Below are positions 2,645-16,819 of a stretch of DNA of 64,000 nt, in pieces. Under the pieces are notes generated by a model. The model had not been told where the DNA came from. It saw only the letters and a program-made list of their open reading frames with translations, and did no database searches. The number at the start of each line of letters is the position of its first letter. Position 1 is the first letter of the stretch. Source of the DNA: Kazachstania africana CBS 2517 (Eukaryota > Ascomycota > Saccharomycetes > Saccharomycetales > Saccharomycetaceae); the NCBI RefSeq assembly GCF_000304475.1, contig NC_018942.1, positions 124,001 through 188,000 on the forward strand, given 5' to 3'. Position numbers and translations under genes: made by a program.

Positions 2645-2854
2645 AAGTTGTTTGACTTTTTTTACACACCAAAGACACCTACAACAAAACCAGTGCACCA
2701 TTTGTCCAACTGATTAAATTTGGGATTTCACAATATATTCGAATATTAGTGAACACTTTTCATGGACGCAACTTTATCCATATTGAAGAATCCCACACTA
2801 TAAAAATGTAGTTTTCGTTACTATTTGTTCTTAATATTATATACTATATTTATG
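2645..2854 (-). repeat. Left arm of 210-bp inverted repeat (truncated LTR)
   Basis: Read on the minus strand, this 210-base segment matches 3918-4127 over its whole length with no gaps and four mismatches. The shared sequence also resembles the middle-to-end part of the solo LTRs at 4168-4549 and 16422-16819: TTAAGAACAAAT, then a tatagtgt box, then AAAGTTGCGTC and CACTAATATTC. I therefore read it as a truncated LTR in inverted orientation. Its inner end touches the toxin-like gene leader. Its outer end at 2645 joins unrelated sequence. Confidence 0.85.
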
Positions 2855-2872
2855 GGAAAAATAACAGTAACC
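2855..2872 (+). other. GAAAAAT-type leader at the repeat junction
   Basis: Eighteen bases lie between the inner end of the left arm and the ATG of the signal-peptide frame. They begin ggaaaaataacag. Plus strands of the yeast L-A totivirus and of M killer satellite RNAs are known to begin with GAAAAA a short distance before the first ATG. The match in sequence and position suggests the integrated copy starts at an RNA 5' end (2855 or 2856). This is inference from a short motif. Confidence 0.45.
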
Positions 2873-3738
2873 ATGTGGAGATCCATCACTGTGTTAATTT
2901 CGGTAGTCACATTAGCCGCAGCCCAGTCCTTTAACTACTTGAGTCAGCTTGGACTTAACCGTTGACTAACATCACAGACATCAATGCACGAGCATACAAC
3001 TTCCTTAAGTGTTGTGAAGTCAACGGCTTTTCGAACGCTACTGCAGTCATAACGGACGCAGAGAATACTCTAGCATTAGTGGCCAATGCCACCACTACCA
3101 ATACCACACGTGCGGGACAGGTTTATGACTACTGTGCGATTAAATACGGCCTTAGCCTTAGAACTATGTTAGCCGTTAGAGCACAGTACCACGTAGAAGA
3201 TCAATACTGGTCGACTGTAGGGGAGCTACTCGCGGGAGAAATAGACCTCCCAAGCCTAGTCGATAACCCTGCCGTTACTAGCCAAACATCGATCACTGAA
3301 TTGGAAACAGCCCTTCAACGTAGAGCCACTGGCCACGACGGGGCATACTATGAAGTGTTTCCGTCAGATTACAACAATTGCGGGAGCCCTGACCTGGTCA
3401 CCACTTATACTGACGTGTGTGAGGGGTCTAACAGCGCGTTCAAAGCATATCAAGCTCGTAACACTAATGACAAAGCCATGGTCTTTATTACTTGGCCCCA
3501 TCACAGGTGCGAGAAAGGGGATTATGAGCGTCACGCCATCCTCCTCCATGAAATGATAGCCTGCACTAAACGCACAACATACTCCTGGTATGGATCTCTC
3601 CAAGATGATGTTTGCTATCTTGACCCGTCGGGTAGTGAGTGCGTCGAAGCATATGTAGATACGTGGTCCCCATCGGCAATGGCAAATGCCGACTACGTAG
3701 GCCCGTACTGGGCAGTGTGGGGTTCCAATCTGAGCTAG
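2873..3738 (+). pseudogene. Secreted killer-toxin-like preprotein gene, frameshifted
   Basis: A good ATG at 2873 opens a 30-codon frame coding for a typical secretion signal (a basic residue, then a hydrophobic run ending in Ala-rich sequence). It stops at TGA 2963-2965. The main body (about 258 residues, 2962-3738) lies in another frame with no usable ATG; its own frame has a TAA at 2956-2958. The two parts are thus split by a shift inside about 2959-2964. The body has nine cysteines, four N-glycosylation sequons near its start and one dibasic Arg-Arg (Kex2-type) site, the build of a secreted killer preprotoxin. I cannot place it in a named killer family. Base composition is unlike the neighbours: 31 of 60 bases are G/C in 3301-3360. 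It sits between inverted LTR-like arms. Confidence 0.65.
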
Positions 3739-3843
3739 CCTTTGAAGCACGGGCCGGCAACCAACTGTAATACGGATCCTGAAGGCGCTGTATCTATAGA
3801 TGATTCGATATGATAGCGTGCTCCAATGCTTAGGTCAATGTGA

Positions 3844-3911
3844 ATATTAAAAAGAAAAATAATAAAATAATACAAAATATAAACACATAAATTATTATAA
3901 AAAATTAAAGT
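3844..3911 (+). other. A-rich tract after the toxin-like gene
   Basis: About 68 bases that are almost only A and T, with A dominant, starting about 105 bases after the toxin-like stop codon and ending at the right repeat arm. M killer satellite RNAs are known to carry an internal A-rich stretch after the toxin frame. A reverse-transcribed poly(A) tail is another explanation. Confidence 0.45.
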
Positions 3912-3917
3912 ATACTA

Positions 3918-4159
3918 CATAAATATAGTATATAATATTAAGAACAAATAGTAACGAAAACTACATTTTTATAGTGTAGGATTCTTCAATATGGATAAAG
4001 TTGCGTCCATGAAAAGTGTTCACTAATATTCGAATATATTGTGAAATCCCAAATTTAATCAGTTGGACAAATGGTGCACTGGTTCTGTTGTGGATGTCTT
4101 TGGTGTGTAAAAAAAGTCAAACAACTTGTAGCTCGAATGTTCCAGTTTATGTTACAGCA
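3918..4159 (+). repeat. Right inverted-repeat arm running into an LTR end
   Basis: Bases 3918-4127 mirror the left arm at 2645-2854 (206 of 210 identical, no gaps). Beyond 4127 this copy continues to an LTR-type end, ccagtttatgttacagca, which matches the 3' end of the solo LTR at 16422-16819. The right arm therefore keeps the 3' end of the LTR while its 5' part is missing at the junction with the toxin-like insert. Confidence 0.8.
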
Positions 4160-4167
4160 AAAATTAT

Positions 4168-4549
4168 TGTAAGTTCAATACGGTAACAAGACAGATAATA
4201 CAGAGAGAATATGACACGACTTGTGTATATTCTAATTCAGGGACAGAGAGCTTGGAAATCGATCTGATCGTATAACTATAGCTGAAAGAGTATCAAAAAG
4301 TCTGTCCTCTTTTAATATATAAAATTATAAAGTAAGATAAAAGATTAAGAACAAATATGACGAAGAATTCCTTTTTATAGTGTGGAATCCTTCAAGATGA
4401 CAAAAGTTGCGTCTATGAAAAGTTTTCACTAATATTCAACCAAATTCGATAATATGAAATATTTAATTGAATTTAATAAATTGAACAGCGGGCGTCTAGG
4501 TTTTGATTCTGGGAAAGTAGTCACACGAATTTAGAGCTATGTTACAACA
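4168..4549 (+). mobile_element. Solo LTR (copy A), Ty3-like placement
   Basis: It starts TGTAAGTTC, ends TTACAACA and is close in sequence to copy B at 16422-16819; the first 116 bases of the two are identical. It contains a TATA-like ttttaatatataaaa and the tatagtgtgg box also seen in the inverted arms. Relative to copy B it lacks about 20 bases near the 3' end. No internal gag/pol sequence and no clear 5-bp target duplication are seen. Its end lies 15 bases upstream of a tRNA-Gly-like sequence, as expected of a Ty3-type element that inserts at Pol III start sites. Confidence 0.75.
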
Positions 4550-4564
4550 AAGATACGGTTTCTT

Positions 4565-4635
4565 ACGCAGGTGTTTTAGTCGTAAAATCCAACGTTGCCA
4601 TCGTTGGGCCCCCGGCTCGAGTCCGGGCCTCCGCA
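4565..4635 (+). pseudogene. Decayed tRNA-Gly(GCC)
   Basis: The anticodon arm (ccaacgttgccatcgttgg, anticodon GCC) and a well-paired T arm match yeast tRNA-Gly. The acceptor stem has mismatches at 1:72 and 4:69. The D arm has lost G10 and one of the conserved loop Gs, so the A box is damaged. I read it as a former tRNA gene that once served as an LTR target. A low-activity gene cannot be excluded. Confidence 0.7.
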
Positions 4636-4639
4636 TCTT

Positions 4640-6623: not shown

Positions 6624-7310
6624 ATGCCAGGTAAATCAGAAAAGACAGAAACACCATTAATTTTTGCACCAGAGACATTTCAATACGATAAGTTGTCATT
6701 GTCAGAGGAGCAACTAGAAAAGGACCCAATCGACCAATTCACTAAGTGGTTCAACGACGCAAGAGATGATCCTACAGAAGCGCTACCAGAAGCGATCACA
6801 TTTTCCTCCGCAGAGTTACCATCTGGTAGAGTCTCGTCTCGTGTGTTATTGTTCAAAGAATTAGATCACCGTGGTTTCACCATATACTCCAATTGGGGTA
6901 CCTCTGCAAAGGCAAACGATATAAAAACGAATCCAAATGCTGCTATCAATTTCTTTTGGAGGAATTTGCAGAGACAAGTTCGTGTAGAGGGCTTTACAGA
7001 GTTTGTAAATCGTGAGACTTCTGAAAGATATTTCAAGACAAGACCAAGGGGCTCTAAGATCGGTGCATGGTCTTCCCCACAATCTCAAACTATTAAAAAC
7101 AGAAAGGAACTTGAAGAATTGGTCGAAGCAAATGCTAAAAGGTTCGAAAATGTTGAAGAAGTCCCTTGTCCTGAATACTGGGGTGGATTAAGACTCGTTC
7201 CTTTAGAAATCGAATTCTGGCAAGGTAGGCCAAGCCGTCTCCATGATCGTTTCGTCTACAGAAGGAAATCTGCTGAAGATCCTTGGGAAGTGATTAGATT
7301 AGCTCCATGA
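6624..7310 (+). CDS. PDX3: Pyridoxamine 5'-phosphate oxidase
   Basis: This FMN-dependent oxidase converts pyridoxine or pyridoxamine 5'-phosphate to pyridoxal 5'-phosphate, the last step of vitamin B6 cofactor salvage. The 228-residue product matches the usual yeast length. It has the flavin-binding split-barrel fold signatures: PSGRVSSRVLLFKELD (about residues 66-81), the FMN contact segment around FYSNWGTSAKA-like FTIYSNWGTSAKA, and the conserved C-terminal pair EFWQGRPSRLHDRFVY plus WEVIRLAP. PDX3 followed by HMT1 in the same direction matches YBR035C-YBR034C. The start is the first ATG of the frame. Confidence 0.96.
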   Translation: MPGKSEKTETPLIFAPETFQYDKLSLSEEQLEKDPIDQFTKWFNDARDDPTEALPEAITFSSAELPSGRVSSRVLLFKELDHRGFTIYSNWGTSAKANDIKTNPNAAINFFWRNLQRQVRVEGFTEFVNRETSERYFKTRPRGSKIGAWSSPQSQTIKNRKELEELVEANAKRFENVEEVPCPEYWGGLRLVPLEIEFWQGRPSRLHDRFVYRRKSAEDPWEVIRLAP

Positions 7311-16331: not shown

Positions 16332-16404
16332 TGGACGAGTCCGGAATCGAACCGAAGACCTCTCCCATGCTAAGGGAGCGCGCTACCAACTACGCCACAC
16401 GCCC
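16332..16404 (-). tRNA. tRNA-Ala(AGC)
   Basis: A 73-base cloverleaf with anticodon AGC in loop ttagcat, acceptor stem starting GGGCGTG with the G3:U70 wobble pair that identifies alanine tRNAs, an intact A box (tggcgtagttgg) and B box (ggttcgattcc), and discriminator A. It is nearly identical to S. cerevisiae tRNA-Ala(AGC). No intron. Confidence 0.95.
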
Positions 16405-16421
16405 GTAATTTCTTGTTTCAT

Positions 16422-16819
16422 TGTAAGTTCAATACGGTAACAAGACAGATAATACAGAGAGAATATGACACGACTTGTGTATATTCTAATTCAGGGACAG
16501 AGAGCTTGGAAATCGATCTGATCGTATAACTATAGCTAAAAGCGTATCAAAAGCTTGTCTTTTTTTAATATATAAAATTATAAAGTAAAATAAAAGATTA
16601 AGAACAAATATGACGAAGAAATCCTTTTTATAGTGTGGAATTCTTCAAGATGACAAAAGTTGCGTCTATGAAAAGTTTTCACTAATATTCAACCAAATTC
16701 AATAATGTGAAATATTTAGTTTGATAAATTGGACAGCGGGTATCTAGGTTTTGATTCTGGGAAAACAGTTACACGAACTTAGAGCTTAATGTTGTAGTTT
16801 CCCAGTTTATGTTACAACA
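16422..16819 (+). mobile_element. Solo LTR (copy B), 17 bp from tRNA-Ala
   Basis: 398 bases, starting TGTAAGTTC and ending TTACAACA, homologous to copy A at 4168-4549 (first 116 bases identical, about 10 percent divergence after that). Its first base is 17 bases upstream of the tRNA-Ala 5' end, matching insertion at a Pol III start site as known for Ty3. No internal domain follows, so it is a solo LTR left by recombination. No exact 5-bp target duplication is seen. Confidence 0.8.

Follow-up and report, generated by a model that had tools for sequence, protein, structure and literature searches.

A broken killer-type gene between inverted Ty3/gypsy-type long terminal repeat arms in Kazachstania africana, probably copied from a satellite-like RNA

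The stretch of DNA analysed here (termed the window) comprises 64,000 nucleotides of Kazachstania africana CBS 2517, that is, positions 124001-188000 of contig C3 (NC_018942.1) within a genome of 11.13 Mb and 12 contigs. At 2645-4159 it contains a broken killer-type gene lying between two inverted arms of a long terminal repeat (LTR), which is probably a chromosomal copy made by a Ty3/gypsy-type retrotransposon from a satellite-like cytoplasmic RNA. The two parts of this reading differ in strength. On the sequence evidence, a role for retrotransposon machinery is strongly supported, because the arms are cut inside the LTR region R at the gene, because the layout recurs at other loci (labeled here by L and a number), and because of Ty3-like spacing to tRNA genes and additional features of locus L013; a killer-satellite RNA is the probable source, as judged from the leader, the A-rich tract, base composition and a relation to the Klus toxin. 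A first-pass annotation, based on the letters of the window alone, had proposed both at once, namely a satellite-RNA complementary DNA (cDNA) inserted by a retrotransposon; the part played by the retrotransposon is strongly supported, whereas the satellite source is retained as probable only.

Results

The arms of the element (2645-2854 and 3918-4127) are inverted relative to each other and differ at 4 of 210 positions (98% identity). As had been supposed, they come from a local LTR family, which the right arm as the query locates at 33 places (both arms counted) and a solo LTR of the window as the query at 46 (40 of 48 candidates scored). Many of these 46 copies are near full length, but beside killer-type genes the copies are truncated at the U5 end. 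L013 retains an intact LTR of this family, 400 bp long, with a TATA box at position 187. The right arm extends to the correct LTR terminus at its outer end (4159), while the left arm is short there by about 33 nt; the inner ends abut the GAAAAAT leader (left) and the A-rich tract (right). Coordinates are given in Table 1. The neighboring genes at 1441-2370 and 6624-7310 resemble ATP3 and PDX3.

Table 1. Features of the killer-type element and its insertion target (window coordinates)
Feature	Position	Strand	Remarks
5' arm, U3 and start of R	2645..2854	+	Ty3-type LTR subfamily A; outer ~33 nt gone; TATA box 75 bp before ATG
Leader	2855..2872	+	GGAAAAATAACAGTAACC; interpreted as 5' end of captured RNA
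ATG and signal-peptide-like frame	2873..2965	+	30 codons; TGA at 2963
Killer-type protein body (family A)	2962..3738	+	Other frame; 9 Cys, 5 sequons, RR and KR
3' untranslated part, A-rich tract, 3' junction	3739..3917	+	A-rich tract at about 3838-3917
3' arm, U3 and start of R	3918..4159	-	Subfamily A, inverted; outer terminus intact
Later full-length solo LTR	4165..4549	-	Ty3-type subfamily B; flanks AAAAT (4160-4164) / AAGAT (4550-4554)
tRNA-Gly(GCC)	4564..4637	+	Insertion target

This arrangement is not confined to the window. Six loci (the window, L009, L010, L011, L012 and L030) share the order U3-R, killer-type gene, inverted U3-R, and these carry two unrelated protein families, termed here family A (the window, L009, L011 and L030) and family B (L010 and L012); at L013, which carries a third family (C), the gene lies instead within a direct LTR pair, the downstream LTR of which is complete. 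The two arms are 98% identical in the window and 98, 84, 77, 90 and 72% identical at L009, L010, L011, L012 and L030, respectively. Over the seven loci the 5' arms end at seven different LTR positions (229 to 355 of 400), and the inverted 3' arms end at positions 217-251; these differing cut positions imply separate insertion events. No U5 remnant occurs within about 2 kb outside the 5' arm in any of the six inverted elements.

Two other accounts of this layout were considered and rejected: a DNA transposon with terminal inverted repeats, given that the arms are fragments of an LTR of which full-length solo copies also exist, and duplication of a single captured element, given that junctions, tRNA targets and proteins differ between loci. 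An additional inverted U3-R pair, at L014:2142-3772, lies about 12 bp from an intron-bearing tRNA-Ala gene; its interior of about 1,150 nt consists of LTR pieces with no killer-type frame, and it was left out of the count of captured elements for want of a killer-type open reading frame (ORF). Nested LTRs of several families occur at tRNA genes at L018, L019 and L058-L061.

The solo LTR at 4165-4549 now separates the killer element from the tRNA-Gly gene (4564); when this later insertion is discounted, the element ends 14 bp from that gene. With the window treated in this way, the outer end lies 14-18 bp from a tRNA gene at all seven loci (with an uncertainty of about 3 at L009 and L010, the ends of which are eroded). 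Ty3 is reported to insert about 12-15 bp from the mature tRNA sequence with a 5-bp target duplication (PMC5006619, PMC8632968; papers designated by such numbers are cited for those portions of their text that were available), and the seven distances fit this rule of insertion just upstream of an RNA polymerase III gene. Target duplications match at 5 of 5 positions at L013, at 5 of 5 at L011 on the assumption that the first base of the LTR has mutated, and at 4 of 5 at L012. At all seven loci the tRNA gene follows the 3' end of the killer-type gene and is on the same strand, though two U3 ends should allow either orientation. The window contains a second full-length Ty3-type solo LTR (16420-16819), about 15 bp from a tRNA-Ala gene (16332-16404).

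The retrotransposon itself can be characterized from two loci. A pol frame on contig C6 (L055) encodes RVT_1, RNase H and integrase zinc-finger domains, with rve just under the cut-off, and is followed by LTR positions 268-400, the U5 part, at 78% identity (L057); reverse transcriptase, RNase H and integrase thus occur in the Ty3/gypsy order and are linked to a window-type LTR. L013 retains a pol-side remnant (matching no Pfam family), a polypurine tract, a full LTR and AAACC on both sides; the polypurine tract is identical to that of Ty3 (sequence from PMC11381356) at 13 of 14 positions. By these sequence comparisons the arms are truncated LTRs of a Ty3/gypsy-type element. The L055/L057 copy (C6:293-298 kb), which lacks the pol 3' end and the U3 of the downstream LTR, is the only gypsy-type pol obtained from the RVT_1 search besides a weak match on contig C1.

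Following the end of the left arm at 2854, GGAAAAATAACAGTAACC leads directly to the ATG at 2873. The first-pass annotation had placed the start of GAAAAAT at the first base past the arm; it is the second. An A-rich tract after the coding region, likewise reported earlier, is indeed present (3838-3917; 90% A+T, 63% A). Known satellites consist of a 5' GAAAAA, an ORF, a central poly(A) and a 3' part with packaging signals, GAAAAA being the 5' end reported for many of them (PMC7888664). The window copy has the order of M-type satellites, from 5' GAAAAA through the ORF to the A-rich tract. The captured copies span the leader to the A-rich tract, with the satellite 3' part lacking; because the copy stops at this tract, at most the 5' half of a satellite would have been captured.

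Five of the seven Ty3-type loci have GAAAAA within 30 nt of the ATG; within 30 nt upstream of an ATG it occurs in 0 of 27 window genes, and it occurs in 835 of 22,828 intergenic 30-nt windows (3.7%). Moreover, GAAAAATAAGGATAA is common to the leaders of L010 (family B, Ty3-type LTR) and L035 (family A, with a copia-type LTR described below), and the window leader reads GAAAAATAACAGTAACC. Among eight motif-bearing leaders, those of different families are more alike than random GAAAAA sites would be (mean P 0.004), and the best cross-family pair was never matched in 20,000 draws from 65 such sites. At L010 an A-rich run sits between R and the leader, and it looks as if the jump from one template to the other had landed on a poly(A) tail; a stretch of 16 A occurs at L030.

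The window gene is broken and does not form a single ORF: the signal-peptide-like frame from the ATG at 2873 ends at the TGA at 2963, and the body is open in a different frame (2959/2962-3738). This body contains 9 cysteines, 5 N-glycosylation sequons, one RR and one KR, and a dibasic site at the position of the RR is also present in relatives. The traits of a preprotoxin (signal peptide, dibasic site, cysteines and sequons) can thus be recognized, by eye and from counts, with the signal piece in a separate frame. In other words, the secreted, cysteine-rich protein described in the first-pass annotation is borne out in its traits but not as a continuous ORF; that annotation overlooked the broken frame and also the solo LTR inserted later before the tRNA gene. 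Frames are likewise broken at L009 and L011, and are open at L010, L012, L013 and L030; KAFR_0C05240 (on the contig of the window), KAFR_0A08240 and KAFR_0C05800 are relatives with open frames.

Family A has no relative in Pfam, NCBIfam or PDB; in keeping with the earlier proposal, comparison of the body with protein databases, within the limited sensitivity of the protein search, matched no ordinary chromosomal family. Family B belongs to PF20521 ('Secreted protein CSS2'), and CSS2 is related to Klus, which is encoded by the Mlus satellite double-stranded RNA (dsRNA) (PMC13211469). Family C was without a match in a Pfam search and has relatives near two contig ends. The suspected difference in base composition is real: the GC content of the body is 0.493, as against a mean of 0.378 (standard deviation 0.024) in the 27 other genes of the window, and ORFs of the killer families range from 0.43 to 0.52 against the same host mean. 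A search of K. africana's own genome revealed no near-identical parental gene of the window copy. Tandem duplications of killer-family genes occur at L029:2393-5196 and L034:2033-3690 without, and at L032:1161-3505 with, an upstream LTR.

Most killer-family genes stand behind an LTR. Of the 23 killer-family starts examined, 15 have an LTR 7-128 bp upstream, in every case oriented like the gene. Not among the 23 are L036 (a weak match), L040, L041, L045, L047/L049 (with many stops) and L050 (E 0.37), and for L035 the second start was set a few bases away from its ATG. None of the 27 other window genes has a same-orientation LTR directly upstream; the one case of an LTR within 600 bp is in opposite orientation and is the killer element's own left arm. 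At all seven captured loci the ATG is preceded by a TATA box at a distance of 61-215 bp (75 bp in the window), so that each gene is predicted to arrive under an LTR promoter.

A second LTR family, starting with TGATGGGTC, lies upstream of killer genes at L031, L032 (two), L033, L035 (two), L043, L048 and also at L036, which, though outside the 23 starts, has both this LTR and a leader. At L035 a pol piece beside this LTR shares 46-49% identity with a locus that encodes a copia-type RVT_2 domain; the reference copia-type LTR was cut from L035, the match there being by construction. Because this LTR itself holds GAAAAA where several genes join it (L035:3059-3343, L032, L043 and others), the motif at those genes cannot count as viral, but it could have guided the jump. 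The published GAAAAA of the K. africana KKT genes may partly be copia-type LTR sequence.

A proposed route of capture

The element is best accounted for by the following steps. An RNA consisting of a GAAAAAT leader, a toxin ORF and an internal A-rich tract, and beginning GAAAAATAA... at its 5' end if it was a satellite, would have been copied by the reverse transcriptase of the retrotransposon. At the 5' end of this RNA the enzyme would have jumped to R near the 3' end of the Ty RNA and continued through U3; the junction is there to be read, its polarity being presumed. At the A-rich tract the other end would have been joined to the T-rich part of R, which leads to U3, a structure that is visible in a presumed order; cDNA synthesis may have begun in, or stopped at, the A-rich tract, with which the T-rich start of R could pair. 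Because both cDNA ends lead through U3 to the polypurine-tract boundary, U3 would come to lie at both ends, with the arms inverted. A Ty3-type integrase would then have inserted this molecule, by way of its two U3 ends, just upstream of the transcription start of tRNA-Gly, where the element is found, and the 5' U3, with its TATA box, would supply a promoter from which the gene is presumed to have been expressed. Afterwards, a Ty3-type insertion at the same tRNA gene left the solo LTR, the outer end of the left arm was lost, and the frame was broken.

Discussion

Several observations weigh against this reading. GAAAAA is missing at L009 and L011, two of the seven Ty3-type loci; a genome search that allowed up to 2 mismatches did not find the DPA motif of the 3' part of known satellites; no satellite RNA with the window protein is known; and searches for totivirus genes gave no match, though their controls gave none either. 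The protein search with family A returned K. africana proteins only and is of limited reach, given that it missed the paralogs at L029 and L031. The arms at L030 belong to different LTR subfamilies. Target duplications are weaker at L009 (3 of 5), L010 (2 of 5) and L030 (2 of 5), and thus are clear or nearly so in only two of the five testable inverted elements (L011 and L012). Finally, 8 of the 23 killer-family starts are without an upstream LTR; members lacking leader and arms, which the first-pass annotation would have counted against itself in related yeasts, are therefore present in this genome itself; these, however, are diverged paralogs.

Among the alternatives, it is unlikely that the template of the same reverse transcription and integration was a polyadenylated mRNA transcribed from an older killer gene in the chromosome, so that the element is a retrogene. 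Ty1 reportedly makes retrocopies of yeast mRNAs, as Derr et al. are said to have established in 1991, and this counts in favor of such an origin, as do the several family members without LTRs and the A-rich tracts, which could be decayed poly(A) tails (such as the run of 16 A at L030). Yet a leader kept between unrelated proteins is expected of viral termini and not of separate mRNAs, the GC content of killer ORFs is well above that of host genes, no near-identical parent was seen in the own-genome search, and many satellites are reported to begin with GAAAAA (PMC7888664).

The remaining two alternatives concern how the arms or the insertion arose. That two LTRs were inserted separately, in opposite orientation, around an ordinary chromosomal gene is most improbable, despite the abundance of nested LTRs in this genome (L058-L061 and L014) and the presence of a later LTR beside the window element itself, both of which speak for it: at six loci both arms are cut inside R exactly at the start and end of the gene, none of the six has a displaced U5 outside its 5' arm, and the upstream LTR has the same orientation as the gene in 15 of the 15 cases having one. 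Nor do four other U5-truncated LTRs have a killer-type ORF by the cut (L058-L061 being those examined, with shorter fragments left out). It is very unlikely, too, that chimeras of U3-R and killer cDNA were made by Ty but joined to the chromosome by repair rather than by integrase. Capture of Ty cDNA at chromosome breaks is known (references in PMC7175516), and L009, L010 and L030 show no clear target duplication; however, tRNA spacing of 14-18 bp at seven of seven loci and the duplications at L011, L012 and L013 are hallmarks of an integrase.

If copying of a satellite-like RNA by the Ty3/gypsy-type element is accepted, the K. africana series of junctions would fix the site of the jump, the retrotransposon responsible, the landing place and the origin of the promoter, and the seven insertions together suggest a route by which RNA-borne toxin genes may become chromosomal genes with a ready-made promoter. 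A broader proposal is put forward tentatively, with somewhat less than even confidence: that two unrelated LTR retrotransposons routinely turn killer satellite RNAs into chromosomal genes, by a jump from the RNA's 5' end onto R (at a GAAAAA match in the copia-type LTR), U3 caps, integration through two U3 ends and a ready-made promoter, in which case the inverted-U3 cassette would constitute a distinct class of retrotransposition product. A caution also follows: inasmuch as the copia-type LTR carries the motif, GAAAAA ahead of a chromosomal killer gene does not on its own mark a viral relic.

Comparison with known systems

Chromosomal killer-type genes, mostly subtelomeric, were described in K. 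africana and other yeasts by Fredericks et al. 2021 (PMC7888664), who proposed retrotransposon capture and noted both GAAAAA near K. africana start codons and the closeness of tRNA genes. Those genes and the present ones thus share a killer-type product, GAAAAA near the start codon and a tRNA neighborhood; the LTR arms, the junctions and the inverted architecture are, as far as the accessible text of that paper goes, described only here. The window protein family appears to differ from the KKT (K1-like) family, a statement made without direct comparison to the K1L sequence. No published account of these K. africana junctions was found in a literature whose coverage here is incomplete (subscription papers and supplements); retrotransposon capture itself is already in print, and it is the junction anatomy, its recurrence and the donation of a promoter that appear to be new.

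KTA2 of S. cerevisiae Y55 (PMC12691639) is likewise an LTR-flanked killer-type gene for which retrotransposition has been suggested. It is, however, a single case, belongs to the aerolysin-like K62 family and lies 1,459 bp from a tRNA gene rather than at Ty3 spacing; unlike for the window series, no junction analysis is described in the available part of that report. The non-retroviral integrated RNA viruses (NIRVs) and nuclear sequences of plasmid and viral origin (NUPAVs) of Taylor and Bruenn 2009 and Frank and Wolfe 2009 (via PMC2823675) are dsRNA virus genes in yeast chromosomes, for which the reverse transcriptase of Ty elements is assumed to be responsible; according to PMC2823675, direct clues to the mechanism were lacking, and the K. 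africana junctions supply clues of this kind. With the Klus/KHR (CSS2) family (PMC13211469) the connection is through L010 and L012, whose genes are PF20521 members, unlike family A of the window, which matches no Pfam family.

The closest mechanistic parallel is Ty3 of S. cerevisiae (PMC8632968, PMC5006619, PMC11381356), with which the K. africana element shares a gypsy-type pol, the polypurine tract (13 of 14 positions), tRNA spacing and, at L013, a 5-bp duplication. Unlike Ty3, however, the body inserted at these loci is a killer-type gene, and in six of seven cases it is bounded by U3 at both ends.
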